IMG/VR virus record: IMGVR_UViG_3300028733_000005
Coordinates: 1 to 44,265 of that record
Source of the DNA: a virus
Strand: one strand, 5' to 3'
DNA length: 44,265 bases
In this document: piece after piece, positions 23,613-36,006 of the stretch
Layout of the letters: every line of letters starts with the position of its first letter
How positions within the stretch are numbered: the stretch's first letter is position 1
The notes under the pieces: generated by a model
Told to the model about the DNA's origin: nothing
Seen by the model: the letters and a program-made list of their open reading frames with translations, nothing else
Database searches by the model: none
Translations under genes and position numbers: made by a program

Positions 23613-25523
23613 ATGGCCGGTCCTCTACTTGCCGACAGAGAGTGGATTCAGAAAGCATTTTTCCTGAATAAGAATGCTTACGACAATGCTACCACAAAAG
23701 CACGTCGCACCTTCTCTACTGTCCTCTTCAAATTTACCGATACCACCCCTGGTGGTAACTTTGCAATCAACCCCCTCCCCCAGTTCACAAGAACGGCTGA
23801 CATCCCTGTTAAGGGTCGCTATACTTCTTCAACTGGCATGGGAAGATGCTACAGTGAAGCGATTGATGACAATCAGCAGCTGGTCAACATGCGCTATGGT
23901 GTTCCTCAGTTCAATTCACTGACGACCTTCTTTACTGGATTCTATAAAGCCAGTGCAGGTAGGCTGGCTCGTACAGGTCGTGGTTTCAGCGTCATGGGTC
24001 TATTGGGTAAAGTAGCGGGTTATGTGGTTAACCTGATTACTCTGCCTCTGACCATCATCATGACCACGTTCTACATCATTCGGTTTCTGGCTGGTAAACC
24101 GAGTAGTAAGTACTACTACTTGAAACCCACCATGCCACTGTACTGGAACGCCGTGACCACCATGGTTAACATCATGGCGGTGAACCGAGGTATCTTGCCT
24201 CGTGTGTTTGGTGACAATACAGTTCAACAGGCAATGGGGCGCTCCGACTTGAACTTCTCACCCGACCAATACAAACTCTACAAGAAAATGCTCAAGGGCG
24301 ATGTTTTCTTGGAGTCTGGCGGTATCGACGTCTATGCCATTGCAAACAGGGCTCAGAGACTCGCTAGGCGTCAGCAAAAGGCCATGCAGGCAGCAGCTGA
24401 GTCTTCCGACACTATCACGCTCGATAAGCTGGTGGATTCTGTTAGCAAGCAAGGATTGGATGGTGCTGGTCCACACAAAAACCTGCCTGACTATGTGAGC
24501 GCATGGTGGTCAAGTGGTCCGGGTGAAATGCCTACTTCTCCGGATGGTACTGCCAGCAAGACTACCTCGGATGAGCAAGTTCCCAAACAAGGAGATGAGT
24601 CAGTTTGGGAAAGACTGGCTAGCTTCTATACTGCCGAACTCGATGACGGTTCGGCTTTTGCAACGTTCCGAGTCGATGCGTCAGGTCCTGCCAGTGAGAG
24701 TTTCAGCAATACCCACACACCATCCGAGATTGCTCAGTCAATCAACGGTATGTCTGCATCATCCAGAAGCACAAATTTCTCACTGGCTGGCGGCAATATT
24801 GCATCAGCTATTACTTCTGCAATTGGCGGGATCAAAGACTTCACAGCTGAACTGGCTGATAGTGTCGGCTTGCAAGGATTGGTGGTACTGGGCGGTGGTG
24901 CTTTTGCTGATATTCCCGAACACTGGGATCAGTCGTCTGCATCATTCAACAGAACGAGTTATTCCTTCAAGCTTATCTGTCCGTACAACAATCCACTGTG
25001 TCAGCTGATCTATATCGACTTGCCGATGGCTATGCTCTTGGCTGCGGCATTGCCGATGTCAACTGGTCCTCAGTCGTACACGAGTCCATTCCTGCTTGAA
25101 CTCTACGACAAGGGACACTGCCAGACACGACTGGGAATGATTGATAGTCTGTCATTCACTCGCGGTACGGCTAACCTACCATTCAGCTCAGAATGGAAAG
25201 CAATGGCTGTGGATGTCAGCTTTACTATTGCCGATCTTTCCAGCGTGATTGCGATGCCTATCACTGAAGGCTTTACCATGAACCTGGTTGATACCACTTT
25301 TAGTGACGACAATACCTTCACGGACTATATGGCTGTTCTGGCAGGCATGGGTCTAGCAGATCAGATCTATGCTCTGCGTAAATTGAAACTCAACCTGACT
25401 CGCCAGATGGCTCAATGGAACACATTCTTTAGCGTGTCTCACTTTGCTAACTGGATGGGTGACAACTCTTTCATTCCTCCTTCGAAGTTGATGTCCGCTT
25501 GGTATCGCGGCACAGGCAGATAA
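23613..25523 (+). CDS. Virion structural protein with hydrophobic segment, 636 aa
   Basis: The start at 23613 has AAGGGA about 8 nt upstream. Residues 127-159 form a long hydrophobic stretch (VMGLLGKVAGYVVNLITLPL and onward), possibly membrane-inserting. The middle (about 250-390) is Ser/Asp-rich and probably flexible. The C-terminal 200 residues look folded (FKLICPYNNPLCQLIYIDL; FLLELYDKGHCQTRLGMIDS). It lies downstream of the giant tail gene on the same strand, so a tail or baseplate role in envelope penetration is inferred. No enzyme motif is seen. A bidirectional hairpin follows. Confidence 0.78.
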   Translation: MAGPLLADREWIQKAFFLNKNAYDNATTKARRTFSTVLFKFTDTTPGGNFAINPLPQFTRTADIPVKGRYTSSTGMGRCYSEAIDDNQQLVNMRYGVPQFNSLTTFFTGFYKASAGRLARTGRGFSVMGLLGKVAGYVVNLITLPLTIIMTTFYIIRFLAGKPSSKYYYLKPTMPLYWNAVTTMVNIMAVNRGILPRVFGDNTVQQAMGRSDLNFSPDQYKLYKKMLKGDVFLESGGIDVYAIANRAQRLARRQQKAMQAAAESSDTITLDKLVDSVSKQGLDGAGPHKNLPDYVSAWWSSGPGEMPTSPDGTASKTTSDEQVPKQGDESVWERLASFYTAELDDGSAFATFRVDASGPASESFSNTHTPSEIAQSINGMSASSRSTNFSLAGGNIASAITSAIGGIKDFTAELADSVGLQGLVVLGGGAFADIPEHWDQSSASFNRTSYSFKLICPYNNPLCQLIYIDLPMAMLLAAALPMSTGPQSYTSPFLLELYDKGHCQTRLGMIDSLSFTRGTANLPFSSEWKAMAVDVSFTIADLSSVIAMPITEGFTMNLVDTTFSDDNTFTDYMAVLAGMGLADQIYALRKLKLNLTRQMAQWNTFFSVSHFANWMGDNSFIPPSKLMSAWYRGTGR

Positions 25524-25530
25524 CTGCATA

Positions 25531-25569
25531 CTCTCTATCCTACTCCTTTCACGGGAGTAGGATAGAGAG
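25531..25569. terminator. Bidirectional hairpin, 16-bp stem, between convergent genes
   Basis: CTCTCTATCCTACTCC (25531-25546), loop TTTCACG, complement at 25554-25569. It sits 7 nt past the rightward stop (25523) and 8 nt past the leftward stop (25578), so it can end both units. Confidence 0.7.
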
Positions 25570-25577
25570 AGCAGCAA

Positions 25578-25985
25578 TCACATCACTTTGTCAAGTGATT
25601 GATAAACAGAAACCAGCCAGTCATTGATGTTGCCATATGGGGAGAAGAAGCGATTCATAACTTCATGCGTCACAGTCATGTCAGGAAAAGACATGATCAT
25701 GTCCAGCTCTTTTGAGCACTTGTAGGTTAACTGCCCACCAAACTCATCAGGAGCCTTGACAATGTAGACGGGTCCCAAGACCGTTCCGATGATCAGGATC
25801 TTGTAAGAACAGGTGCCAAACCGACTCTCGGCATAGTACTCGTACTTACAAACACGACTGGCTGCAATCTCAGGATGTTCATCGCTCATCAATCCATCGA
25901 GCTGGTCAGGGTGATAAATACGGCCCGTATAGACATCCGTGCAAGCATCAAAATAGTGTTCAAACAAAGCCCTGGCTGACATCAT
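25578..25985 (-). CDS. Unknown phage protein, 135 aa
   Basis: Start taken at the double ATG at 25985/25982 right after AAGGAAGGA. A longer reading from 26060 would overlap the upstream gene by 68 nt without a better ribosome site. The protein has a helical N-terminus (ARALFEHYFDACTDVY), then strands (SYKILIIGTVLGPVYIVKA) and a helical end. Four to five Cys residues are scattered without a zinc pattern. It lies just downstream of the Ser/Thr-rich virion gene and may be co-expressed with it. Function not recognised. Confidence 0.7.
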   Translation of the reverse strand: MMSARALFEHYFDACTDVYTGRIYHPDQLDGLMSDEHPEIAASRVCKYEYYAESRFGTCSYKILIIGTVLGPVYIVKAPDEFGGQLTYKCSKELDMIMSFPDMTVTHEVMNRFFSPYGNINDWLVSVYQSLDKVM

Positions 25986-25992
25986 TCCTTCC

Positions 25993-27081
25993 TTAAAAGA
26001 AGGTCGTGATCTGACTCGACACACTGCTCGACAGATTAAGACCATTTTTACTGGATGCATCCGAAATACTCGATGTTACATCATCGGTTGTCAATTGCGT
26101 TGCAAGCAAGTAATCGACAGACTTATCATCTTTCGATCCTGTTGCACCTGCCGCTATCACAGACTTAAAACCAGATGTGGGGTCCGAGCTACTCGTGAGC
26201 AGAGATGAAATATCCGTGCACACTTCAGGAGTAGTACTCAGAGGGTTACGTGTTGCCACATTCCACGTAGGATCGACCGCTGTGAACGTGGAGAATGAAC
26301 TCGTATAGGACGACACCTTATCAGAGATAGAGGCAGCATCCGTGGTCTGGAAACTGGTGGCGTACGTACTCACTAGTGAAGGACTGGCACACTCAGCAGC
26401 ACCCTTGGTACTCAAACCCACCATGGACTTGAGATCAATGCTGTTAGCGTACTTAGCAGCTGAGTTAGCAGCCATCTTCGTGATAGAGTCGATGACGCCC
26501 TTCTCACTGGATGCATTGAGCACTGTTCCAGACAAACCCTGAACACCGAGCTTGCTAGCAGTGTTGAGCAAAGCTGCCCCTGCCGTAATTGCTGCGCTGG
26601 TGTCCGTGATCTTCAATGTATTGACGCCAGTGATATTTTTCGCCATTGACTGCAATGACGTTACACTCGTCAGATTACCTACATTGATATTGGATACCAC
26701 ACCACCGATGTTAGTGCTGAGCTTGTCTGACATGCCCAGTGCAGCACACGCTGATGCTACAGATGTGCTCGCTGACTTGGTAAGACCAGTGAGCAAGTTC
26801 GAAGTGGTGGAATTGCTTGCCAGCCTTTGCAATACTTGAGAGACTGATTTTGTTGACGCTGCCGTCTTAGCCAGTGCAATTACATCAGTCAGATTGGAAC
26901 CAGTGATCTTGGTGTTGCTGCTCTTAATGGTGTCCAAGACATCCGCGGATGGCTTGGTGGTAACTGACTCAACGGATGAAACAACAGCATTATTACCGCT
27001 GGCGTTATAAACGTCAACAGTGGCAGTGCTGTCATCTGCACCTGTTGAGAATACGGTAGTTGCAAGGCGAGGGATTGCCAT
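25993..27081 (-). CDS. Ser/Thr/Ala-rich probable virion protein, 362 aa
   Basis: Start taken at the ATG at 27081 after GAGAGG. An in-frame ATG 11 codons upstream has no site. About half the residues are Ser, Thr, Ala or Asn, with short hydrophobic repeats (for example NIGGVVSNINVGNLTSVTSL; GLSGTVLNASSEKGVIDSI), and there are hardly any aromatic residues outside the region 240-290. Such composition is common in phage tail and adsorption proteins. It lies opposite the tail genes, from which it is separated by one small gene. Tail association is inferred. Confidence 0.72.
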   Translation of the reverse strand: MAIPRLATTVFSTGADDSTATVDVYNASGNNAVVSSVESVTTKPSADVLDTIKSSNTKITGSNLTDVIALAKTAASTKSVSQVLQRLASNSTTSNLLTGLTKSASTSVASACAALGMSDKLSTNIGGVVSNINVGNLTSVTSLQSMAKNITGVNTLKITDTSAAITAGAALLNTASKLGVQGLSGTVLNASSEKGVIDSITKMAANSAAKYANSIDLKSMVGLSTKGAAECASPSLVSTYATSFQTTDAASISDKVSSYTSSFSTFTAVDPTWNVATRNPLSTTPEVCTDISSLLTSSSDPTSGFKSVIAAGATGSKDDKSVDYLLATQLTTDDVTSSISDASSKNGLNLSSSVSSQITTFF

Positions 27082-27154
27082 TATGAACCTCTCTGGGATC
27101 AATGATTTAGTCAAATGATTGACCCAAAGGGCAAAAAAAGAAATAAGCTCATAC

Positions 27155-27192
27155 CCATACCACCTAGAGACACATGTCTCTAGGTGGTATGG
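27155..27192 (-). terminator. Perfect hairpin, 18-bp stem, 2-nt loop
   Basis: The stem arms are 27155-27172 (CCATACCACCTAGAGACA) and 27175-27192, with loop CA. TACC/GGTA outside the stem can extend it after a bulge. It is 9 nt past the stop of leftward gene 27202-27771. It is the longest perfect stem in the window. No U-tract follows. Confidence 0.65.
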
Positions 27193-27201
27193 AATGGGTA
27201 C

Positions 27202-27771
27202 TTACTTCTTCGGATCAAACTCTTTCTTGCGATCACCTTGCAGGTATTCGCGGATGTGAGTCAGGCCTTCGATCAACCAATTGCAGTGAGTGCTGTGAAC
27301 CAGAATCCTGTTGGGGCCATGCAGGTAGTACGACTTGAAAGGCAGAGACGACGATACCAGCAGGTATTCGAGATTGGGGTTTTGGGTGATTTTGTAGTAG
27401 CTGGCCAGAATGATTTCACGACGGAAGTTTGCAATCTTGACTTGCTTGGTCTTTTGCTTACCATACTGGTGAGCTGACAGACCGGAGATGCTGCGAAGTT
27501 GGTCATGCTGTTGGCGATTCTCCGCACATACCCAACGCCAGAATCCTTCAAGCGTCCGGAAAGGTCCGTAGATAGGGTGTGTGAAAGGAGTTTCAGCCAG
27601 AGTGCCAAGCAACTGTCCGAGTTCCGTACGGGAAGCATCATCGATGTTGATGTGGGTCACTCCGTCATTTTCAACTTCGCTCAAACTGAAGTTTGCCATG
27701 TCTTCGACGAGCGAGATCTCTTCGACAGGTGCTGATGGATTTCTTGGTTTTGCAAGTTGTTTTCCGGACAT
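27202..27771 (-). CDS. NADAR-like protein, copy 1
   Basis: 189 aa, paralog of the protein at 31222-31695. Shared elements in order: DGVTHINI (37-44), TELG (49-52), HPIYGPFRTLEGFW (65-78), NPNLEYLL (131-138), SLPFKSYY (142-149), NWL (164-166) and HIREYL (172-177). The order (Y-G or Y-P, then an LE-h-F/Y motif, an LG-like turn, then K/Q-NP-x-L and a final strand) resembles the NADAR family, whose members act on or sense NAD/ADP-ribose derivatives, some removing ADP-ribose from DNA or nucleotides. The match is distant and by eye. A 34-residue N-terminal extension precedes the shared part. It has a hairpin at its 3' end. Confidence 0.6.
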   Translation of the reverse strand: MSGKQLAKPRNPSAPVEEISLVEDMANFSLSEVENDGVTHINIDDASRTELGQLLGTLAETPFTHPIYGPFRTLEGFWRWVCAENRQQHDQLRSISGLSAHQYGKQKTKQVKIANFRREIILASYYKITQNPNLEYLLVSSSLPFKSYYLHGPNRILVHSTHCNWLIEGLTHIREYLQGDRKKEFDPKK

Positions 27772-27780
27772 AATTTTCTC

Positions 27781-28188
27781 TTATTGTTCATCATCAGGCA
27801 TGTCTTCGAGGATCACAGGAATACTCAGATGTTCCCACTCCGGGCAATCCCTACGCTTCCACCTGACGCTAAATTCCACATCAGTGATCTGGAGAATTCG
27901 GAACCCTTTACAGAGTACCTTCCAGGTCATCTTTCTACGTCCAAACTCCTTATTGAGATTCCCTTTATTGGAACCTCTGTCCTTACGGTTATCCGGAATA
28001 CCGTGACTGGGGTTTACCAAATACTGGTAAACCAAAGAAGTCCAGATGCTAGTTTTCGGAACAATCCGTCCAATCATCATTCGGAATAACCGACTGAGTA
28101 TTCCTCCAATACCCAAACAGTTCCCGACTAGATTGTCGCCATCTGAGATGATCTTCTCTATTGGATCAATCTCGTCATTTATACTCAT
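27781..28188 (-). CDS. Unknown basic phage protein, 135 aa
   Basis: Start chosen at the ATG at 28188, 5 nt after AGGAG. A reading from 28236 would overlap the upstream gene by 40 nt. N-terminal acidic stretch (NDEIDPIEKIISDGDN), then a Gly/Ile/Leu segment (LGIGGILSRLFRMMIG) that could be amphipathic, then a Lys/Arg-rich middle (NRKDRGSNKGNLNKEFGRRK) and a strand-rich end. Nine bp separate it from the NADAR-like gene. Function not recognised. Confidence 0.68.
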   Translation of the reverse strand: MSINDEIDPIEKIISDGDNLVGNCLGIGGILSRLFRMMIGRIVPKTSIWTSLVYQYLVNPSHGIPDNRKDRGSNKGNLNKEFGRRKMTWKVLCKGFRILQITDVEFSVRWKRRDCPEWEHLSIPVILEDMPDDEQ

Positions 28189-28196
28189 GCTTACTC

Positions 28197-28727
28197 CTAT
28201 ACGAGGAAATAGGCAATCCTTGTCAACGTCTGGCAAAGATGGTCTACCAAACGCAAGCCTTGTCTGTGATAATAGCTCTCAAGTGCTTTATCACTGAGTT
28301 TTTGGTATTCTTCAATGAATTGAAAAATAGCTTTTTGTAGGGCTGTCCACTGAACTGTAACATCCAGGTAAGCACCTTTATGTGACACAAAGAACTTTAT
28401 CAGGTCGGTATGCTGTGTCTCGCGATACCGATCAGTATTTACAGCATCTCCTTTCCTCATCAAGTGCCTGAAGTCATTCAGATGATTGATCACAGAATCT
28501 ATGGATGATGCGACTGCTTCAAATTCGTATTGAGATTTGAGAAAGTCCTCCTTTTCAATTATGTATTGTGGATCTATCGCACGACAGATTTCCAGAGCAG
28601 AATCCATCAGGATTTCGAAATCTCTCTGGGATGTGAGCGATATATCATGTGAGCTGACGCGTCTCAGTATCGAGCGCAAGTTTGCGCGATAAAGAAACCG
28701 TCTAACAGCATAGAAAAATCCTTTCAC
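28197..28727 (-). CDS. Unknown helical phage protein, 176 aa
   Basis: GTG start at 28727 with a strong GGAGG site. The N-terminus is very basic (KGFFYAVRRFLYRANLRSILRR). The remainder is predicted helical with heptad-like spacing (for example ALQKAIFQFIEEYQKLSDKA). No motif is recognised. It is divergent from gene 28793-29320 across a 65-bp gap that must hold both promoters, and the minus strand there has a TATG at 28777-28774. It overlaps the ribosome site of the next leftward gene. Confidence 0.7.
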   Translation of the reverse strand: MKGFFYAVRRFLYRANLRSILRRVSSHDISLTSQRDFEILMDSALEICRAIDPQYIIEKEDFLKSQYEFEAVASSIDSVINHLNDFRHLMRKGDAVNTDRYRETQHTDLIKFFVSHKGAYLDVTVQWTALQKAIFQFIEEYQKLSDKALESYYHRQGLRLVDHLCQTLTRIAYFLV

Positions 28728-28792
28728 TCTTTACCTCCACTGTAAAGTAATGAGTGTTTGAAAAAACTTAGAGCATACAATTGGAGTCAATC

Positions 28793-29320
28793 ATGACAGT
28801 CGAAGTTTTCCCGGCAGATGAGCCTCAAGAGCTCCCAACTGCTGAAGTTCTGGATGCAGAAGTCAAACCTGAAGAATCTCAGAATGTTCAGGATGAGGAT
28901 CAAGAAGTTCTGAAATATACCCAAGGCCTGCGTCGTCAATTTGTCAATAGTCTCATCAATAAAGACGGTAAGGTCAGTGATGACAAGGTTGACAGATCAT
29001 TCTTTCTGCAAGCCCTGGGTGATATGGATAGAGCGGCTCTGGGCAACATGCGTATCAAGGCCGACAAGAAAGCCGGGGATGCTGGCGTTCAAGCTGCTGC
29101 CATGATTGCCAAGCTTCTTAAAGACCCGGTTCTCGCAGCAGCTCGCAGAGCCATTGCTCCTATAGAGCGAGAAATTCCGGTTCTTCCGGAGGAATTTCCT
29201 GATCCTGATGTGGTTCCTGGGGAAGCTCAGTTTCACGCGGATGTTCTTGATTCTCAGGACTTCTTTCCGACGGAGAAGGAGGCTTCGGAGACTCGTCCTG
29301 CGATTGCGGATGAGGATTAG
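28793..29320 (+). CDS. Acidic unknown protein with antisense-overlapped C-terminus
   Basis: 175 aa, ATG at 28793 with GGAG 6 nt upstream. A TTG start 4 codons earlier is less likely. Acidic, Pro/Glu-rich N-terminal 45 residues, then a helical core (LKYTQGLRRQFVNSLINKDG ... SFFLQALGDMDRAALGNMRI, KAGDAGVQAAAMIAKLLKD) and a Pro/Asp/Glu-rich tail. The last 161 bp are also the 3' end of the leftward gene 29160-30083, read antisense. This is a lone rightward gene between leftward units. The core has a flavour of small DNA-packaging or head-binding proteins, but this is not a safe call. Confidence 0.7.
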   Translation: MTVEVFPADEPQELPTAEVLDAEVKPEESQNVQDEDQEVLKYTQGLRRQFVNSLINKDGKVSDDKVDRSFFLQALGDMDRAALGNMRIKADKKAGDAGVQAAAMIAKLLKDPVLAAARRAIAPIEREIPVLPEEFPDPDVVPGEAQFHADVLDSQDFFPTEKEASETRPAIADED

Positions 29321-30083
29321 TCATCTCCCCATTCAGAGCAGCTCTCACCTTCTGCGCAGCTCCATCGTCCAACCAGGTCAGATCTTCAGGCCTGATGATG
29401 GAGTAGAACTTGGTATCGACCACGTTGAGCTGAATCAAAAGCATCAGTTGCTGTTGCAGTGCTTCGAATGGATTGAAGGATTTCTTGGATTCTTCTTTCC
29501 ATTCCTCTACAGAGAGCTTTTTCTCGAAGAAGATCGAAGGCACTATCAAAATGGTGTTGCGACAGGGCTTGGTGATCAAGTCAGGAATGACATTGTTGAG
29601 CCACTCACCGTACTCGTACTTGACCACTGCGACGTACTCAATCAGCTTGTCGTGATCGAACTCCTCAGGAGAATGACTCACAAACTGAATATCGACCTCG
29701 TCGCCGAGCCAGTAGTTCATGGCTCCAGCATAAGCGATCTGAACCTCCTCATCGAACTCGACAGGGTAGGTATTGATCGTAAGCTTTGCTCGCACTCCCA
29801 TCCCGTTGATACTCTCATTGGCTATCTCAGCAATGAAAGACTTCAGGATAAACACCATCGAAGTCATTCTCGATTGACCGACAGTCTCAATACCACGCCT
29901 TTTATAGAGGTCGTGGTATTGAGACTCGTCTATGCCGTCGAACACATCCGTGATACGTTCGTGGTATCCATTCTTGAGGATACGAACAGCGGCTTCTTCG
30001 GAAATGCTGGCGATGGTGGCAATGCGAAAGTCAAGTAGTGCATCGATGTCAACATAGATGCTCAGAGCTTTTGGTTCTTTCAT
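29160..30083 (-). CDS. Unknown phage protein with disordered Pro/Glu tail, 307 aa
   Basis: ATG at 30083 with GAGG about 8 nt upstream. Residues 1-255 look folded (SIYVDIDALLDFRIATIASI; KLIEYVAVVKYEYGEWL; TILIVPSIFFEKKLSVEEW). The opening, a strand with spaced acidic residues followed by a helix, and the closing FYSIIRPEDLTWLDDG are distinctive, but I do not recognise the family. The last 50 residues are Pro/Glu/Gln/Ser-rich, and this part overlaps gene 28793-29320 in antisense. It follows the beta C-terminal gene by 16 bp on the same strand. Confidence 0.72.
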   Translation of the reverse strand: MKEPKALSIYVDIDALLDFRIATIASISEEAAVRILKNGYHERITDVFDGIDESQYHDLYKRRGIETVGQSRMTSMVFILKSFIAEIANESINGMGVRAKLTINTYPVEFDEEVQIAYAGAMNYWLGDEVDIQFVSHSPEEFDHDKLIEYVAVVKYEYGEWLNNVIPDLITKPCRNTILIVPSIFFEKKLSVEEWKEESKKSFNPFEALQQQLMLLIQLNVVDTKFYSIIRPEDLTWLDDGAAQKVRAALNGEMTNPHPQSQDESPKPPSPSERSPENQEHPRETELPQEPHQDQEIPPEEPEFLAL

Positions 30084-30099
30084 TGCCTAATCCTCGCTA

Positions 30100-30774
30100 T
30101 TACAGGGTACTCTTCAGATGCATACCCGTGAGCACAGTTTTCAAAGTAACCGTGCTTGTGGTTTCAGTACCCAATTGATCAAGTGCATCCAGACGAACAC
30201 CACCAGTATTGCTGATGGAGTTGTTCATGGCGTTGAATCCTTCCAGATCCCCACCCCGATACTTCATGAACTCCACCAGTGCTTTGGAAAGACCCAAAGC
30301 TTGCATCACCTGGACTTCAGGGTACGAGATCTTCGCTCCCTTGGAATTGCCCGTAGGCTGACCAGAGAGATTGTCGATGGATTTGTTGTCCGAAGGGATT
30401 GAGATCTTCTTGACAAGAAGCTGAGCCTGGCGTCTGATCGGCAGATCCAGAATCATGTATTTCTCAGGTGTCTTGTACCGCACACCTGATGCAGGGTTGA
30501 CAATCCACAGATGTTCGAAGAAGTCATGCCCCATCTCTTTTGCAAGAGCGAGGTTGCGTTCCACTGAAAGAGCTTTCTCTCCCATGTTGGGCATCTGGTA
30601 GGATAAACCTTCTCCATCATTGGCTTCCAACTCACGAATCCAGACTTCAAACTCCTTGTCAGACATGCTAGCAAACATTTGCTTATACATGTCGACATTG
30701 AATTTGTCACCTGGAACGATCTTGGCTATCCATGTCAACACTACGGCCTCTGCAGCTTTTCGATTCCCTGGCAT
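30100..30774 (-). CDS. Virion RNA polymerase beta subunit, C-terminal part (phiKZ gp149-like)
   Basis: 224 aa from the ATG at 30774 (GGGAG, 6-nt spacing). A GTG at 30840 overlapping the upstream stop is the alternative but has poor spacing. Residues 105-185 follow the C-terminal clamp of bacterial RpoB step by step: KYMILDL for the YMLKL strand, then an S-x-D-N-K-S stretch, [20 protein letters not shown] for [32 protein letters not shown] for the ALEAYGAAYTLQEML helix, then [10 protein letters not shown] for DDVNGRTKM. This completes the beta subunit whose larger part is at 10571-14863. phiKZ gp149 has this role as I recall. Confidence 0.8.
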   Translation of the reverse strand: [224 protein letters not shown]

Positions 30775-30836
30775 TTGTATCTCCCGTGTAATTGCCAGAT
30801 ACAAAAATCCGGCTAACCATTCATAGAATGATCGCT

Positions 30837-31229
30837 TCACGCCTCAGGACGTCTGTGGTGCAGGCGCTTTAATCCGTGGTCAACCGCCAAGGAACAAGGA
30901 TTGCGTTCCAAGATAGCTACCAGACCGATGAGTTCTTTTCGAACGAAGTCACCAAAGTAACCATCGTCTCGATCCTTGGCAGATGCTTCAGCTCGATCCC
31001 TGAAGAGGATATCGTGCACTATGTACAGTGCCAAATACCTTTTATGCGATCCGTACTCTGCTAGATTCATCACACCATTGTAAACGAGCTGGATATCTAG
31101 AGGCATGCTCTTGAAACATCTTGACAGAGCAGATAGCTTGGCATCGATATCGACACACTCAGCAAAACCATCCCTGCACAGATCGTAAAAACGCACCTGA
31201 GTATCAAGCACCTCTTTCATTTTAGACAT
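30837..31229 (-). CDS. Unknown helical phage protein, 130 aa
   Basis: Start chosen at the ATG at 31229, overlapping the end of the NADAR-like gene by 8 nt and preceded by GGAAG. A longer reading to 31343 would sit inside that gene. Helical with several Cys (LCRDGFAECVDIDAKLSALS; RCFKSMPLDIQLVY) and a very basic end (GLKRLHHRRPEA). It sits between the NADAR-like gene and the beta C-terminal gene on the same strand. Function not recognised. Confidence 0.65.
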   Translation of the reverse strand: MSKMKEVLDTQVRFYDLCRDGFAECVDIDAKLSALSRCFKSMPLDIQLVYNGVMNLAEYGSHKRYLALYIVHDILFRDRAEASAKDRDDGYFGDFVRKELIGLVAILERNPCSLAVDHGLKRLHHRRPEA

Positions 31230-31695
31230 AGTCAATGCTTCCGTATTTTTCTTTAAGTTCTTCTCTGATCTGCACATACATCGGAGAGAGCCAATCAATG
31301 CCTTTCGGATGAAAGGGTTTCGGTGTGGGACCTTGTCTGTCAACGTAGTAGTGCTCGAAAGGCAGATGGGATTTGATGGTCAGTTTCAGAAGACGAGGGT
31401 TTTGTTCAATCTTCATCTTAGCTGCATCGTGGATCAGACGCAGAAAGTCTGAACGTTCCACTCGAGCGAAGGTGCGGCCAACGCGCTTCGCTGTGAGTCC
31501 CACAAGGTCTTTGAGTTCCTCATGCTTACAACCACTGCGAACGTAATACCAAAATGCTTCCAGGCTCGCAAAATGACCATAGTGAGGATGATTGAAGCCA
31601 TAGTGAGAGAAGTGGGATAATGCTCGACCCAATTCAGTCTTACCATGGCTATAGATGTTGATATGTGATACCCCATCATCCGAAACGTGTGACAT
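31222..31695 (-). CDS. NADAR-like protein, copy 2
   Basis: 157 aa, ATG at 31695 with AAGGAT upstream. It shares with the protein at 27202-27771: DGVSHINI (7-14), TELG (20-23), HPHYGHFASLEAFW (36-49), QNPRLLKL (98-105), SHLPFEHYY (109-117), DWL (134-136) and QIREEL (142-147). Its RVGR (71-74) fits the K-x-LGR turn of NADAR proteins better than copy 1. NADAR proteins process or bind ADP-ribose-type compounds. The assignment is distant. The neighbouring SLOG-DUF488 gene, two genes upstream on the same strand, supports a nucleotide/NAD theme. The end overlaps the next gene by 8 nt. Confidence 0.6.
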   Translation of the reverse strand: MSHVSDDGVSHINIYSHGKTELGRALSHFSHYGFNHPHYGHFASLEAFWYYVRSGCKHEELKDLVGLTAKRVGRTFARVERSDFLRLIHDAAKMKIEQNPRLLKLTIKSHLPFEHYYVDRQGPTPKPFHPKGIDWLSPMYVQIREELKEKYGSIDYV

Positions 31696-31697
31696 GA

Positions 31698-31937
31698 CTA
31701 AATCCTTTTAGGCCTTGTCCAGGCACGGGCGGTTCTATAAAAGACCCATCTGGATGCAGAACAAGTCGGGCCATAGAGTGGTCTGTTCAGGTCTCCGAAG
31801 TACCTGCGCATCTGTCTGGGAGACATGTGGAAGAGCCTTACTACACCGAGCTCAGACATCCTATCGCAGTGACCTTGTCCTCGGATGGTGTGATGATGTC
31901 CCTTTTTATTCCTGAATTCTTTTGTTCTGGGCTTCAC
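31698..31937 (-). CDS. Small very basic protein, 79 aa
   Basis: GTG start at 31937 that overlaps the stop of the SLOG-DUF488 gene by 3-4 nt, with AAAGGA about 8-9 nt upstream. Rich in Arg/Lys/His, with an HHH run and a Cys (HHHTIRGQGHC, residues 14-24). The C-terminus reads SRWVFYRTARAWTRPKRI. The size, coupling on both sides (2-bp gap to the NADAR-like gene) and lack of another gene here suggest it is real. It could bind nucleic acid through its charge. Not recognised. Confidence 0.5.
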   Translation of the reverse strand: MKPRTKEFRNKKGHHHTIRGQGHCDRMSELGVVRLFHMSPRQMRRYFGDLNRPLYGPTCSASRWVFYRTARAWTRPKRI

Positions 31938-32761
31938 TTTTTCATCCTTTCACGCTCGTTGAGCACCTTGACAGACTTGCCATGGTCTTCCAGATACTGA
32001 ACAACAATACCGAGCAGTATGTGACGATGACAAAAGTCAGCAGTAGGACAGTAACACCCAAGAGTAAACTTAGGCAAAGACAAAAGGTGATCCCAGTACT
32101 TAGCAAACTGGATCTTCTTTTCATCGACGACCTTTCGATAGGCTGCCTCATATTCACCCTCAGTGAGTTCTCCTCGCTTCCATGCACCCACCAACTCATA
32201 AGGTGGAGAGAAGGCTTCTATGCCGCTTTTAGCAGTGGTATCGACTACCTTGAAGCCTTCTTTCTTCCAATCTCTCCAACTAGCGAGCTGCATGGTTCCG
32301 ACAACATGATCGAAGTGCTCGGGCTGGTTAGTGTGAACGACACTGAATGTCTTACCCAGCTTTTGCATGCAGTCGATCATGTGCTTGGTGCCACGGGAGA
32401 TATCGTCCCAGAATGCGATCAGGTGCGTGGCTGTGTCTGCCATCTGTTCATTTCGAATGAACCCAGCACCCTTACCATACGTATCCCAATCAGCAGGATG
32501 CGGCAGGTATCTGAGCTCAGGTCGTTCTTGACAATACTGCACCACCATGGCGTCGGCACCGCGCTTTGCCATACCTGAGTAGAAGAGAATGCGCTGGCCT
32601 TCGAATTGCTTGATGAACTCTTCGAGCACCTGCACAAACTCTTCATAATTGTCGTATGTTCTTGACCCGGCCACAATTAAGCGAACCGGGAAGATCTCAT
32701 ACAAATCTTCGACGATGTCGGTGTTCAGCTGATCTTGATCTGGGTATTTTTCAGCAACCAC
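31934..32761 (-). CDS. SLOG (DUF2493/YspA-like) and DUF488 fusion protein
   Basis: 275 aa, GTG start with AAGGGG 7 nt upstream, overlapping the upstream gene by 37 nt. Residues 26-140 form a YspA-type SLOG domain: VAGSRTYDN (30-38), FYSGMAKRGADAMV (60-73), PADWDTYGKGAGFIRNEQM (89-107), AFWDDISRGTKHMI (116-129). SLOG domains bind nucleotide-derived ligands and are often sensors or hydrolases. Residues 150-265 show the DUF488 pattern, with aromatic and basic residues, then GCYCPTADFCHRHIL (235-249) carrying the conserved C-x(n)-CHR. The fusion and the NADAR-like neighbour point to handling of NAD- or nucleotide-derived compounds. The reaction is unknown. Confidence 0.82.
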   Translation of the reverse strand: MVAEKYPDQDQLNTDIVEDLYEIFPVRLIVAGSRTYDNYEEFVQVLEEFIKQFEGQRILFYSGMAKRGADAMVVQYCQERPELRYLPHPADWDTYGKGAGFIRNEQMADTATHLIAFWDDISRGTKHMIDCMQKLGKTFSVVHTNQPEHFDHVVGTMQLASWRDWKKEGFKVVDTTAKSGIEAFSPPYELVGAWKRGELTEGEYEAAYRKVVDEKKIQFAKYWDHLLSLPKFTLGCYCPTADFCHRHILLGIVVQYLEDHGKSVKVLNERERMKK

Positions 32762-33051
32762 GGCACAACCCCTTGTTCAAAGTGACGAAGCCAGTCGATG
32801 AGACGACCATCATCAATCAGGTGCGTGCGCGCATCCGAGCTATCCACGGATGACTCGCACATGTACATCCGGAATGTCCGGTTGATATAGAAGCGCTGTT
32901 CGGGGTGCGAGAGCGATTCATCGATCGCTTGGGGAACGAAGTTCTCGGCGTACTCTTCCCAGTCGGCAGGTTCAACATGACCAGCTTCCTTGAGAATGTT
33001 GGTGAGCTGCGTGTGCAGGGGGACATCGGGGTTGTAGGTGGTCAGCGGCAT
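32725..33051 (-). CDS. Unknown acidic phage protein, 108 aa
   Basis: ATG at 33051, overlapping the upstream gene's end by 10 nt; AAGGG lies about 10 nt upstream. Acidic helix in the first half (LTNILKEAGHVEPADWEEYAE), then RFYINRTFRMYMCE and a C-terminal helix (LIDWLRHFEQGVVPWLL). No known motif. It overlaps the SLOG-DUF488 gene by 37 nt, so the pair is likely translated together. Confidence 0.68.
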   Translation of the reverse strand: MPLTTYNPDVPLHTQLTNILKEAGHVEPADWEEYAENFVPQAIDESLSHPEQRFYINRTFRMYMCESSVDSSDARTHLIDDGRLIDWLRHFEQGVVPWLLKNTQIKIS

Positions 33052-33431
33052 TTCTTTTGGTTCCCTTCTTTATCAAAATCATAAATGGTGCAGTTTTTCA
33101 TGACATTGATGTCATGTTCAGGATGTTGCTTGAGCCAGTCGGTCCGTATTCTTCGCTGGATAGCTCTTTCATGAATTGCTTCATAAAAGTCTTTACCAGT
33201 GTCCGTAATGGTGAAAGGTACAGCACCATCCTTGATAGGGATGCTCCTCTGCACGAGTTTCTGGATCAGAACACGAGAAACAAGCTCTTCATCGGGGACA
33301 TACTTGTGCGTCACCAGGCCAGGATGCATCAGTGAAATGATGAACACCTGGTTCTCTTGAGGAACGTAATACGTCGATCCATCAAAGAGCGTGACAATGC
33401 AGTCTCGAACAATAGGTATTGAATCGAGCAT
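33042..33431 (-). CDS. Unknown phage protein, 129 aa
   Basis: The start at 33431 has GGAG 7-8 nt upstream. The N-terminal third has strand-rich, hydrophobic segments (CIVTLFDGSTYYVPQENQVF). The middle is a charged helical stretch with a winged-helix feel (ELVSRVLIQKLVQRSIPI ... PFTITDTGKDFYEAI), including an LT/IT-x-x-G motif typical of small DNA-binding wings. That is suggestive only. It opens a leftward chain of overlapping genes that runs through the NAD-related genes. Separated from the RecA-like gene by the hairpin 33448-33476. Confidence 0.65.
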   Translation of the reverse strand: MLDSIPIVRDCIVTLFDGSTYYVPQENQVFIISLMHPGLVTHKYVPDEELVSRVLIQKLVQRSIPIKDGAVPFTITDTGKDFYEAIHERAIQRRIRTDWLKQHPEHDINVMKNCTIYDFDKEGNQKKCR

Positions 33432-33447
33432 GTGGATTCTCCATTAT

Positions 33448-33476
33448 ACCCATACAGGGGACTCCCCTGTATGGGT
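33448..33476 (-). terminator. Perfect hairpin, 13-bp stem, right after a stop
   Basis: ACCCATACAGGGG (33448-33460), loop ACT, CCCCTGTATGGGT (33464-33476). It begins 2 nt past the stop of the leftward RecA-like gene (33479). The minus strand continues with ATAATGGAG, which holds the next ribosome site. No U-tract. Confidence 0.65.
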
Positions 33477-33478
33477 GC

Positions 33479-35017
33479 TTATGCCTCAGCCATCTCTTCC
33501 TCAGCAACAGGAGTAGCATCAGCGACGATGGCTCTCACCTTGTCGAGATCCTTGCTGAACGCAGGCAGCTTGACGGCATATTCCTTCTTGATGGTCTTCT
33601 TGTCATCTTCCAACCAGTACGGATGGTAGAGACCAGCACGCATCTTGAGCAGATCCATCGTGGACAGGAAAAGACTATCCTCGAACAGGCCAAGCGGACA
33701 CCACCAGCCACGAGTATGGGTGAGGATCATGTTCCAGTCGTAACCAGCTTTCTTGATGTCCTCGTAGAGTTCTTCTGCTGTACAGATGAAGTTCTGCTTC
33801 CCGTACCTCGAGTCATATTGCTGATACGGCCAGAAGTACCTCATCTGGCACAGTTCACTTGTGATGTTCAGACCTCGTGCGAGAAGAGGGTCTTCATCAA
33901 TTAGATCGCGAATAGTGGTACGGGTGATCTGTCGATCAGGATAGATGGCCAGAGCATATCGCTGATCATTCCCGACCAGACCGAAACGATCGCAGGACTT
34001 GATGTTGTGGAACTCCGTCAATTCCGGCAAAACGCCTTCAGATTGGGATATCAGGATCTCCATCGCCTGACCTGTACGCCCCGTCTTACTTCGCAGATTG
34101 CGAATCAGAACGCTACACAGATCATTGTCACCTTCATTCTCGATGCCACGGTGCGGATACTCCGGTGCCTTTTTCTTGGAGAGCAAAGGTGCTGCGTTGT
34201 ACATGTGGTAGAGATCGGTTGTGAGGAAGGTGAACTTATCCGTCACTCCCTTCATCTTGTCACCGTTCTTCAGGTACTGAAGCTTCTTCTCAGCAGGAGC
34301 CCTTGCATCCATTGCAATGACCTTGCCAAGCTGCGCTGTGATGAACATGTAGCAGGACGCACCATGAGCCAATGCAGGCAGTTCCATGATGAATTCAGAC
34401 TTGGACTTGCCTTGACGCATGAAGAGCGTATTGCGACCACTGTCACCCAGGTCATTCTCATCCATCTGAGTGCTCACATCCTCAGTCTGGAATTCAGTCA
34501 GAGAATCCACACTCTGCATGGAGGGCTGGATGTATTCGAATGGAGCATTCTTGCGACGATCAAAGAACGGAGTCTTGATCATCAGTTTCTTGGCATCCTT
34601 GCGCTGAGCCCTGCAATAGTTCTTGAACTCATCGAACCATTCATTGGCGTAGTACTGACGCTTGTCATTGATAAGCAGGATGGGGTTATCGACATCATCG
34701 ATGTCGGTCGTGCCGAACTCAGGAATGCGGTGTGCCATATCGAGCACGCGTTCGAGATCAAGGTTGATCTCAGTGTCGTAATTACCGACATAAGGCGCTT
34801 TGACACGCGCAGCAGCTTTGAGCTTCATAAACCACATCACTGTGGATTTGAAGTTGTTACCAATGCCGGTGAAGCCATTGAACATCCCCACACCGCCATT
34901 GAGAACAGATTCTCCATGGATGCCGGTGAGATACTTGCCGTTAGGAATGTCTAGGCAGGAGCCCACATTGATATAGATCTTCACCTCAGGTGCTGGTTGA
35001 AGAGCAGGTCTGTTCAT
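33479..35017 (-). CDS. RecA/UvsX-like P-loop ATPase (phiKZ gp152-like position)
   Basis: 512 aa, GAGG 5 nt before the ATG. Residues 46-59 (FNGFTGIGNNFKST) make a P-loop with Phe56 in place of the usual Gly before Lys57. A strand with Gln (SCYMFITAQLGK, about 228-239) may be the Walker B/motif-3 region. LIRNLRSKTGRTGQAMEIL (about 310) resembles the K-R-N/G-x-T-G loop of RecA/DnaB-type ATPases. A role in recombination or strand exchange is inferred; DnaB-like helicase is the alternative. It lies on the opposite strand from, and next to, the head-type gene and near RNase H, as gp152 does in phiKZ (from memory). Confidence 0.65.
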   Translation of the reverse strand: MNRPALQPAPEVKIYINVGSCLDIPNGKYLTGIHGESVLNGGVGMFNGFTGIGNNFKSTVMWFMKLKAAARVKAPYVGNYDTEINLDLERVLDMAHRIPEFGTTDIDDVDNPILLINDKRQYYANEWFDEFKNYCRAQRKDAKKLMIKTPFFDRRKNAPFEYIQPSMQSVDSLTEFQTEDVSTQMDENDLGDSGRNTLFMRQGKSKSEFIMELPALAHGASCYMFITAQLGKVIAMDARAPAEKKLQYLKNGDKMKGVTDKFTFLTTDLYHMYNAAPLLSKKKAPEYPHRGIENEGDNDLCSVLIRNLRSKTGRTGQAMEILISQSEGVLPELTEFHNIKSCDRFGLVGNDQRYALAIYPDRQITRTTIRDLIDEDPLLARGLNITSELCQMRYFWPYQQYDSRYGKQNFICTAEELYEDIKKAGYDWNMILTHTRGWWCPLGLFEDSLFLSTMDLLKMRAGLYHPYWLEDDKKTIKKEYAVKLPAFSKDLDKVRAIVADATPVAEEEMAEA

Positions 35018-35129
35018 GATTACCTCGATGGTGTAATGTATCTATGCATAGAATCCACCTGAATAGTAAAAATTGACCATTGAAATAGTCTGGTTAATAA
35101 TACCCACTTTCCACATGTAAGAGGATTCT
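35018..35129. promoter_or_regulatory. Divergent intergenic region with palindrome TCTATGCATAGA
   Basis: 112 bp between divergent starts at 35017 and 35130. It holds a perfect 12-bp palindrome TCTATGCATAGA (35041-35052), giving TATG on both strands (35043-35046 and the complement of 35047-35050). TATG is the core of phiKZ late promoters as I recall, so a two-way late promoter is plausible. AT-rich sequence follows on the right side. The ribosome sites are GAGG for the leftward gene and AGAGG for the rightward one. Confidence 0.4.
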
Positions 35130-35999
35130 ATGGTTATCGATGAACTGGAGGCTCCGACCTCCACCACGGCTTCCCTTGAACGAGTTAACAAGCTAGTCGC
35201 CATGGAATCTTTTTCCATCGGTAACATGGCCGACTTGGTTCATCGGACATTCCCCAAACTCATTTCTGAAGCACAACGCATCATCGGCTCGGTCTTCTCC
35301 GGCTCAGCCAGCTTCACCGATGGTCACAGCAATGTCAAGCTCTCTGGCAAGCAAGAGAAGTTCCTGGCTCTGACTCGCTCGCATAACTATCTCGATCTGA
35401 AGATCATGAAGGTTTATGCGCCGATCGGAGTCAAGCCGAACTACCTGGCATATCTGGAAGTCTTCCTGCACGAAGCTCAGTTCTGTGAGGACCTGCTCGA
35501 GTATCTGCAAGAGTACACAGTGCTGCTCTCCAGGATCGTGACCGATGAGAACTTCGTGTCCTCTGGTGCATACGTGACCGAAAAGCCTCGGATGATTGAG
35601 GTCCAGCTCGACGAGATCTCCAAGGTTCGTGCTCAGGTTGAAGATCTTGGTCAGAAGTCTCCCACTGTCGAATACAAAGATGTGGTGAGCAACAACAGCG
35701 AATGGGCTGGTGTTTTCGATCGCCTCAACAAGGTCACTCCTCGTTACAGAGGTATGGCAAACAGCAAGGTCAAAGCCAAACTTGATGAGGCTTCCAAGCT
35801 GCTCACCATCCTACTCAAGAAGCAATCGAGTAAGAAGCTCGACAACATCAGTCCTGAAGTCTACAACGGCCTGACCCATTACACCTTCGTAATGGCCAAA
35901 GCCCTCGAGCGCTACTCGCTGGTGCAGTTCTCTTTTGAAGTGTTCACCAACTGTCTGGATAAGACAGTCGATCGCGTGACTGACATCCTCAACCGGTAA
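35130..35999 (+). CDS. Head-type virion protein (phiKZ gp153-like position), 289 aa
   Basis: ATG at 35130 with AGAGG about 5 nt upstream. Helical protein with long amphipathic stretches (NYLAYLEVFLHEAQFCEDLLEYLQ; KLLTILLKKQSSKKLDNI). The first 20 residues are flexible and could be a cleavable leader: SLE near residues 16-18 fits the S/A/G-x-E cleavage pattern of phiKZ-type proteases. Its place between the RecA-like gene and RNase H matches gp153 of phiKZ, a member of the inner-head paralog group as I recall. It is a lone rightward gene in a leftward block and ends at a strong two-way hairpin. Function is inferred from place. Confidence 0.72.
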   Translation: MVIDELEAPTSTTASLERVNKLVAMESFSIGNMADLVHRTFPKLISEAQRIIGSVFSGSASFTDGHSNVKLSGKQEKFLALTRSHNYLDLKIMKVYAPIGVKPNYLAYLEVFLHEAQFCEDLLEYLQEYTVLLSRIVTDENFVSSGAYVTEKPRMIEVQLDEISKVRAQVEDLGQKSPTVEYKDVVSNNSEWAGVFDRLNKVTPRYRGMANSKVKAKLDEASKLLTILLKKQSSKKLDNISPEVYNGLTHYTFVMAKALERYSLVQFSFEVFTNCLDKTVDRVTDILNR

Positions 36000-36006
36000 T
36001 CCGGCA

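Follow-up and report, generated by a model that had tools for sequence, protein, structure and literature searches.

A gp30.3-type NADAR, a paralog lacking active-site residues and a SLOG-DUF488 fusion suggest an ADP-ribose-handling module in a jumbo-phage relative

Introduction

What would a phage do with two NADAR-like proteins and a SLOG-DUF488 fusion, and would they act on soluble signals or on its own DNA? The question is raised by a gene cluster in a 44-kb virus record (IMG/VR record IMGVR_UViG_3300028733_000005, analysed over its whole length of 44,265 nucleotides and called the window here). An earlier note, made from the letters of this DNA alone, had proposed that the cluster counters signals derived from nicotinamide adenine dinucleotide (NAD), or ADP-ribose marks, made by host defence. 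Three genes are central:

31222..31695, minus strand: NADAR2, a gp30.3-type NADAR protein of 157 amino acids with Glu46, Lys70-Gly73-Arg74 and His115
27202..27771, minus strand: NADAR1, a NADAR-fold paralog of 189 amino acids that keeps the Glu and has Ser for His115 and His for Lys70
31934..32761, minus strand: SLOG-DUF488, 275 amino acids, with a YAcAr-type SLOG domain (residues about 25-150) and a DUF488-N3a domain (about 176-253)

The explanation that we favour overall, giving it about even chances, is an ADP-ribose-handling module that acts on phage DNA and in which NADAR1 is non-catalytic. Two IMG/VR contigs, of 92,987 bp (the 93-kb contig below) and 54,457 bp, hold 100% identical versions of all three proteins, so an assembly artefact is unlikely; window positions 895-44265 are 99.975% identical to part of the longer one.

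Two paralogs with a predicted NADAR fold

Over 151 aligned columns NADAR1 and NADAR2 are 38% identical (E 1e-30), much more than chance would give; the ordered sequence blocks that the earlier note had recognized in both are visible in this alignment. Neither protein has a Pfam match to PF08719 or PF08010 at E≤1, and the two longer contigs contain no Pfam NADAR match at E≤10 either; some relatives score below threshold, and the Pfam gathering score reflects the reach of the model rather than a defining feature of the fold. Both proteins match phrog_652 and phrog_11222, the first of which is matched by T4 gp30.3 at 9e-51. In AlphaFold2 (AF2) predictions, the NADAR2 model (predicted local distance difference test score, pLDDT, 96.3) matched 2b3w, 8bau and 8bat with VIA Z values of 12.3, 11.8 and 9.5, and the NADAR1 model (pLDDT 88.4, with its first 30 residues at low confidence) matched solved NADAR/YbiA structures at 12.5, 11.8 and 10.6; the next value was 2.4 in each case. 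Because the models match 2b3w, 8bau and 8bat far above all else, both proteins are NADARs by modelled fold, which bears out the NADAR-like identity suggested earlier despite the missing Pfam match. A profile built from 14 sequences (T4 gp30.3, the two window proteins and 11 relatives) and run against 177,635 PDB sequences returned YbiA 2b3w first (E 0.0057) and NADAR 8bau second (0.073). The two genes, described before as distant copies, lie only about 3.5 kb apart on one strand. Single-protein scans of viral contigs found the same phage twice and one short NADAR1 match, and a scan with an alignment of the family (alignment A1) found 72 loci.

An apparently intact and an apparently broken active site

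NADAR2 contains Glu46, Arg53, Lys70, Gly73, Arg74 and His115 (its numbering is used throughout). In NADAR1 the Glu and the Gly are present, but position 70 is His, position 74 Lys and position 115 Ser; of the 20 remaining columns with at least 90% conservation, 19 are retained. Glu46 and His115 are both kept in 64 of 72 aligned rows, and Lys70 in 97% of those. In a 69-row alignment, which leaves out identical rows, L089 (interrupted) and L093 and L094 (46 amino acids), the Glu46 column is Glu in 66 rows and aligns by profile with the SSEQYF Glu of 8bau; we matched it to E43/E88 of characterised NADARs, and Lys70 to K75/K115, by our own count. His occupies the His115 column in 63 of the 69 rows, with the T4 gp30.3 His falling one column off, and its equivalence to E125 follows from sequence position and the published rule for phages rather than from a residue-level structural alignment. 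The basic residue seven after the Glu, at the place of K50/K95, is Arg53 in NADAR2.

These positions have been studied in other NADARs (statements from papers cited by PMC accession, here and below, are limited to the excerpts available). The distal ribose is coordinated by the Glu together with a last-strand residue; cell rescue depends on the two of them, and efficient hydrolysis in vitro on the last-strand one; the K95R variant of the E. coli C7 NADAR hydrolysed in vitro without rescuing cells (PMC11543638). The last-strand residue varies by subfamily (Glu, Asp or His), phage NADARs carry His at the catalytic place, and T4 gp30.3 hydrolyses guanosine-ADP-ribose (PMC11125620). We class NADAR1, which has the Glu without a last-strand Glu, Asp or His, as a paralog with the NADAR fold and do not count it among active NADARs. 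The conserved Glu, whose absence the earlier note would have held against a NADAR assignment, is present in both proteins, and the implied equivalence of the two does not stand, as their active-site residues differ. Judged from the aligned residues, the active site of NADAR2 appears intact and that of NADAR1 looks broken.

The same residues could be read in another way, with NADAR1 as an enzyme of shifted specificity in which Ser or another residue replaces His to suit a different ADP-ribose linkage. The retained Glu fits such an enzyme, as does the subfamily variation already reported for the last-strand residue, but Lys70, which is nearly invariant, is missing from NADAR1 as well, and some second copies in other phages, described below, are without both Glu and His (Asn/Cys, Tyr/Asp, Ala/Ile), which makes loss the common thread. 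We consider a shifted specificity rather unlikely.

Intact and residue-losing copies in other phages

A search with profile A3 found two gp30.3-type genes in 8 of 60 records, namely the window's phage, G013, G025, G028, G037, G038, Xanthomonas phage LucasX and Salmonella phage SA002. G031 and G032 also gave weak second matches, which we do not class as pairs (that in G031 is a YbiA-type NADAR), and 14 further records, several of them the same phages, included no two-copy record. One copy has Glu and His and the other lacks one or both in seven of the eight. At Glu/His this residue-losing ('lossy') copy reads Glu/Ser in the window, Glu/Ala in G025 and its relative G028, and Asn/Cys, Tyr/Asp, Ala/His or Ala/Ile elsewhere; SA002 has Glu and His in both copies. 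By comparison, a lossy copy was found in 2 of 60 single-copy records (Fisher p 2.9e-7, kinship ignored), these 60 being the 52 from the A3 search less G048, whose frame is interrupted and in which Glu and His are visible by eye, plus nine new ones. The label 'second' was given post hoc to the copy that had lost residues, so a seven-out-of-seven test on these rows is circular, and the entry pattern of the viral-contig scan favours intact copies, so that phages with only a lossy copy are under-sampled. Nor can related phages be treated as independent cases: L062 and L067, from outside the searched records, carry the same second copy as G028.

The LucasX pair consists of an intact NADAR and an adjoining degraded NADAR-like protein, LUCX_333 (L109:7115-7861), which is annotated as 'assimilatory nitrate reductase large subunit' and matches profile A3 at E 1.5e-11. 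In two records of large phages a YbiA-type NADAR accompanies the gp30.3-type protein (L111, G031:95600-96700, and L112, G011:95900-96900; gp30.3-type loci L068 and L038).

Glu or His was lost at least twice, since a five-row subset of lossy copies is rejected as a clade (p-AU 0.023) and L077 and L077b group together at 100/97 in the tree. A single clade of all seven lossy rows is not firmly rejected (p-AU 0.077). Parsimony gives five losses, with long branches. LUCX_333 was in neither clade test and, like L102b, is so diverged that its alignment is uncertain; the tree also left out L031, L033, L041 and T4 gp30.3.

Is NADAR1 then a decaying duplicate without function? Duplication followed by loss of active-site residues would look like this, and the branches in the tree are long, but the NADAR1 frame is open and identical in two contigs, and nearly all of its other conserved residues remain. 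Moreover, dN/dS is 0.183 in the comparable lossy pair L059b/L064b and 0.183 in its intact neighbours, which indicates that this lossy pair is kept rather than decaying; NADAR1 itself has no close relative. Decay seems to us distinctly improbable.

A SLOG-DUF488 fusion next to NADAR2

The reading of the third protein as a YspA-type SLOG domain fused to DUF488 was upheld, both parts scoring above their curated cut-offs: PF10686 matches at 5.3e-7 (29.8 against 28.2 bits) and PF22751 at 4.2e-10 (40.4 against 27 bits; profile positions 34-114 of 118). The protein also weakly matches PF14216 DUF4326 (0.018), and it matches phrog_289, 2450 and 11222. The first half of phrog_11222 is matched by NADAR-like proteins and the second half by the SLOG domain, a split that gave the first hint of a NADAR-SLOG fusion. 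DUF488-N3a and DUF4326 are related rhodanese-type domains. Near the C-terminal end of DUF488-N3a lies GCYCPTADFCHR, which presumably holds the active Cys of DUF488. A phmmer search of the whole protein against PDB sequences returned nothing at E≤1. Among 50 records, DUF488-N3a matches at E≤0.01 in 16, 14 of them over the cut-off, and shares a frame with SLOG only in the window's phage. At G050:C1:63605-64623 a weak DUF488-N3a match precedes a weak SLOG match by about 0.7 kb, unfused.

The genes around the three main ones are as follows:

31698..31937, minus strand: basic 79-amino-acid open reading frame (ORF) wedged between SLOG-DUF488 and NADAR2
30837..31229, minus strand: gene after NADAR2, with a likely start ATG at 31229 that overlaps the NADAR2 stop (the ORF list starts at TTG 31343)
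30100..30840, minus strand: fragment of a virion RNA polymerase (RNAP) beta subunit, right anchor of the slot described below (phrog_3233, 3.2e-82)
33479..35017, minus strand: UvsX-like recombinase, left anchor of the slot (phrog_97, 2.7e-29)
32725..33051, minus strand: small conserved gene directly upstream of the SLOG gene (tblastn)
27781..28236, minus strand: conserved gene directly upstream of NADAR1, marker of 'position B'
23613..25523, plus strand: conserved protein on the opposite strand, far marker of position B

The 79-amino-acid ORF, which has no family match in Pfam or PHROGs, overlaps the SLOG-DUF488 gene by four bases and ends two bases before NADAR2; with this one ORF intervening, SLOG-DUF488 does lie two genes upstream of NADAR2, as had been said. 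Overlaps or abutments of a few bases run from SLOG-DUF488 through this ORF, NADAR2 and the next gene (30837..31229, all of whose Pfam and PHROGs matches are sub-threshold) to the RNAP beta fragment, and the first four genes therefore look like one operon. The RNAP beta fragment is 41.5% identical to Erwinia phage RAY gp154, 'vRNAP beta subunit 2', and the UvsX-like protein is 35.5% identical to RAY gp150. The RNAP-beta-type families in the window, which we take to be of the type known from phiKZ-like phages, mark the window's phage as a jumbo-phage relative. Searched by megablast, 50,697 phage records contained nothing that matched window positions 25000-36000.

SLOG and NADAR genes share a conserved slot

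SLOG-DUF488 and NADAR2 occupy a slot between the UvsX-like and virion-RNAP-beta genes, and NADAR1 lies at position B. Many of these phages have the order UvsX-like, (SLOG), RNAP beta and, further on, a NADAR at position B. Relatives of 27781..28236 precede the NADAR gene in L030, L039, L052 and L059-L062, and tblastn places relatives of 32725..33051 at the corresponding place in L026, L056, L059-L062, FLC9 and LucasX. Directly after NADAR1, at 25993-27114, the window encodes a 373-amino-acid protein rich in Ser, Thr and Asn (phrog_5028). Among 17 loci with both slot anchors, a non-random set from which near-duplicates were removed, ten have SLOG in the slot, three have NADAR there (the window, RAY and SA002) and six have neither. 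At L040:1008-2027 the slot contains a 339-amino-acid ORF without a Pfam match; its stretch CIVGSPSFNDFDMF resembles a SLOG strand by eye, and it is possibly a diverged SLOG.

The link between SLOG and NADAR that had been proposed extends to single proteins. The two are fused in RAY gp153, SA002, SNUABM_37 and contig L076, and SLOG lies within 5 kb of NADAR or is fused to it in 6 of 12 records with an above-cut-off SLOG (the window's phage included) against 1.2 expected, kinship ignored. Macro and DUF4326 domains join them. The RAY slot holds a Macro protein (gp152, Pfam 1e-9) and then the NADAR::SLOG protein gp153, the SA002 slot holds Macro::NADAR and then NADAR::SLOG, SNUABM_37 has a single Macro-NADAR-SLOG protein, L076 is DUF4326-NADAR-SLOG and Vp_R1 has SLOG-DUF4326. 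A P. aeruginosa phage has YspA gp213, Macro gp212 and NADAR gp088 (PMC8541153). The arrangement is not the new one that the earlier note took it for, as available excerpts of PMC7824862 and PMC9503650 already report NADAR/SLOG/DUF4326 fusions and neighbourhoods in jumbo phages.

SA002 shows further features in this slot. A near-identical Macro-end/NADAR segment occurs in two adjacent genes (L105:2452-4328), suggesting recent duplication or unequal exchange. SA002 MGA_141 (L105:2026-2442) has a weak SLOG match (E 3.5e-4), so the slot may contain another, diverged SLOG; RAY gp151 (L104:1606-2025), without a Pfam match, resembles MGA_141 by eye.

Soluble signals or phage DNA

RAY gp153 (L104:2040-3397, KU886224) is annotated as DprA-like, and its neighbour gp152 as a phosphatase. 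In our analysis, gp153 combines a gp30.3-type NADAR and a YAcAr SLOG in one fusion protein, and gp152 is a Macro domain. Published as DprA-like, gp153 co-localises with phage DNA (PMC10299810). Read as NADAR::SLOG, a protein at phage DNA favours repair of ADP-ribosylated DNA over the clearing of soluble signals.

The clearing of soluble NAD-derived alarm signals or toxins, such as cyclic ADP-ribose isomers or ADP-ribose-1''-phosphate (ADPR-1''P), with SLOG sensing or cleaving them and NADAR2 cutting the N-glycosidic bond, is what earlier work proposes for NADAR/SLOG/Macro/DUF4326 proteins of phages (PMC9503650, PMC7824862), and the Macro and DUF4326 partners in the same slot or fusions agree with it. 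However, RAY gp153 sits with phage DNA and is not diffuse in the cytoplasm, and the NADARs assayed act on guanine-linked ADP-ribose in DNA (PMC11125620, PMC11543638). On balance, we think soluble substrates somewhat unlikely. A role in nucleotide or NAD housekeeping or in RNA repair during infection, rather than in counter-defence, would have precedents in E. coli YbiA, which acts on riboflavin intermediates, and in RNA repair, which the literature, as far as excerpts go, links to NADARs. It appears improbable, given that the 68 Pfam-scanned ORFs, part of an incomplete genome, include no riboflavin, NAD-synthesis or RNA-repair family.

Proposed function

By analogy with the activity reported for T4 gp30.3, NADAR2 probably functions as a gp30.3-type hydrolase, releasing ADP-ribose from guanine. 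It would act together with the SLOG-DUF488 protein from the same apparent operon; in that protein, the SLOG domain is predicted to sense or bind ADP-ribose or an NAD-derived ligand, and the DUF488 domain would process a linked group. The likeliest target would be phage DNA ADP-ribosylated by DarT1-like toxins of the host, which would give the module a role in counter-defence; we favour DNA over a free signal because the NADAR::SLOG protein in the same slot of RAY co-localises with phage DNA. NADAR1 would be a maintained, probably catalytically impaired protein that binds without hydrolysing, either as a partner subunit of NADAR2 or as an ADP-ribose reader. A bolder version, unlikely in our estimate, is that large phages have repeatedly combined an intact NADAR with a maintained pseudo-NADAR paralog into a two-part machine for de-ADP-ribosylation, which would be run by SLOG on DNA in the phage nucleus, the pseudo-NADAR binding ADP-ribose or its partner.

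Several points weigh against the proposed action on phage DNA with a non-catalytic NADAR1. T4 gp30.3 is remote from this branch (30 bits), the activity is a prediction here, and only the E. coli C7 and EPEC NADARs, not that of T4, rescued cells from DarT1 (PMC11125620). Available text of PMC9503650 argues that phage NADARs act mostly on soluble ADP-ribose derivatives. The Lys seven after the Glu is essential in the E. coli C7 NADAR, according to excerpts, and this place is unconserved in the branch, with Leu commonest in the 69 rows. E88A alone had a minor effect in vitro, and K75/K115, though needed for rescue, were dispensable for catalysis in vitro (PMC11543638); some lossy copies, L077b above all, may thus still work. 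Two lossy copies stand alone in their records, FLC8 (Gln/His) and PA-SR01 (Gly/Tyr), both of which entered through searches with lossy copies. The 93-kb contig shows no Macro domain, and the Pfam scan of 68 ORFs, of limited sensitivity and covering part of an incomplete genome, turned up no ADP-ribosyltransferase or DarT family. RAY is a different phage in which the protein is fused, and a tblastn search for its chimallin gave no match in the 93-kb contig, a genome fragment that does hold relatives of RAY UvsX and vRNAP beta 2.

The recurrent intact-plus-defective NADAR pair and the DNA-side location of a relative look new. A literature search for NADAR pseudoenzymes or gp30.3 pairs found nothing relevant, and neither the pair nor our reading of gp153 appeared in the excerpts of the literature searched. 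These observations provide testable ground for one phage NADAR/SLOG group repairing ADP-ribosylated phage DNA instead of clearing soluble signals, and the pair would represent a new means by which phages adjust or direct ADP-ribose removal.

Comparison with known systems

The window shares with T4 gp30.3 and other phage NADARs (Phage_30_3, PF08010; phrog_652) the PHROG family, the fold and, in NADAR2, the Glu and the phage-type His. T4 gp30.3 is about 21% identical to NADAR2 in alignment A1, and NADAR1, unlike the phage branch, is without the His. RAY gp152 and gp153 and the SA002 proteins occupy the same UvsX-like/vRNAP-beta slot as in the window and have the same NADAR branch and the same YAcAr SLOG. 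In these two phages and in SNUABM_37, NADAR and SLOG are fused and Macro is a third domain, whereas in the window NADAR is standalone and SLOG is fused to DUF488. The jumbo-phage NADAR/SLOG/DUF4326 systems (Iyer et al. 2021, 2022) share domain kinds, fusions and gene clustering with the window but have DUF4326 where it has DUF488-N3a, and the available portions of those papers mention no defective NADAR partner. In the DarT1-NADAR toxin-antitoxin operon, NADAR is a hydrolase that reverses guanine ADP-ribosylation, as we propose for the window; that operon has its own ADP-ribosyltransferase toxin, whereas the NADAR of the window would oppose the enzyme of the host.

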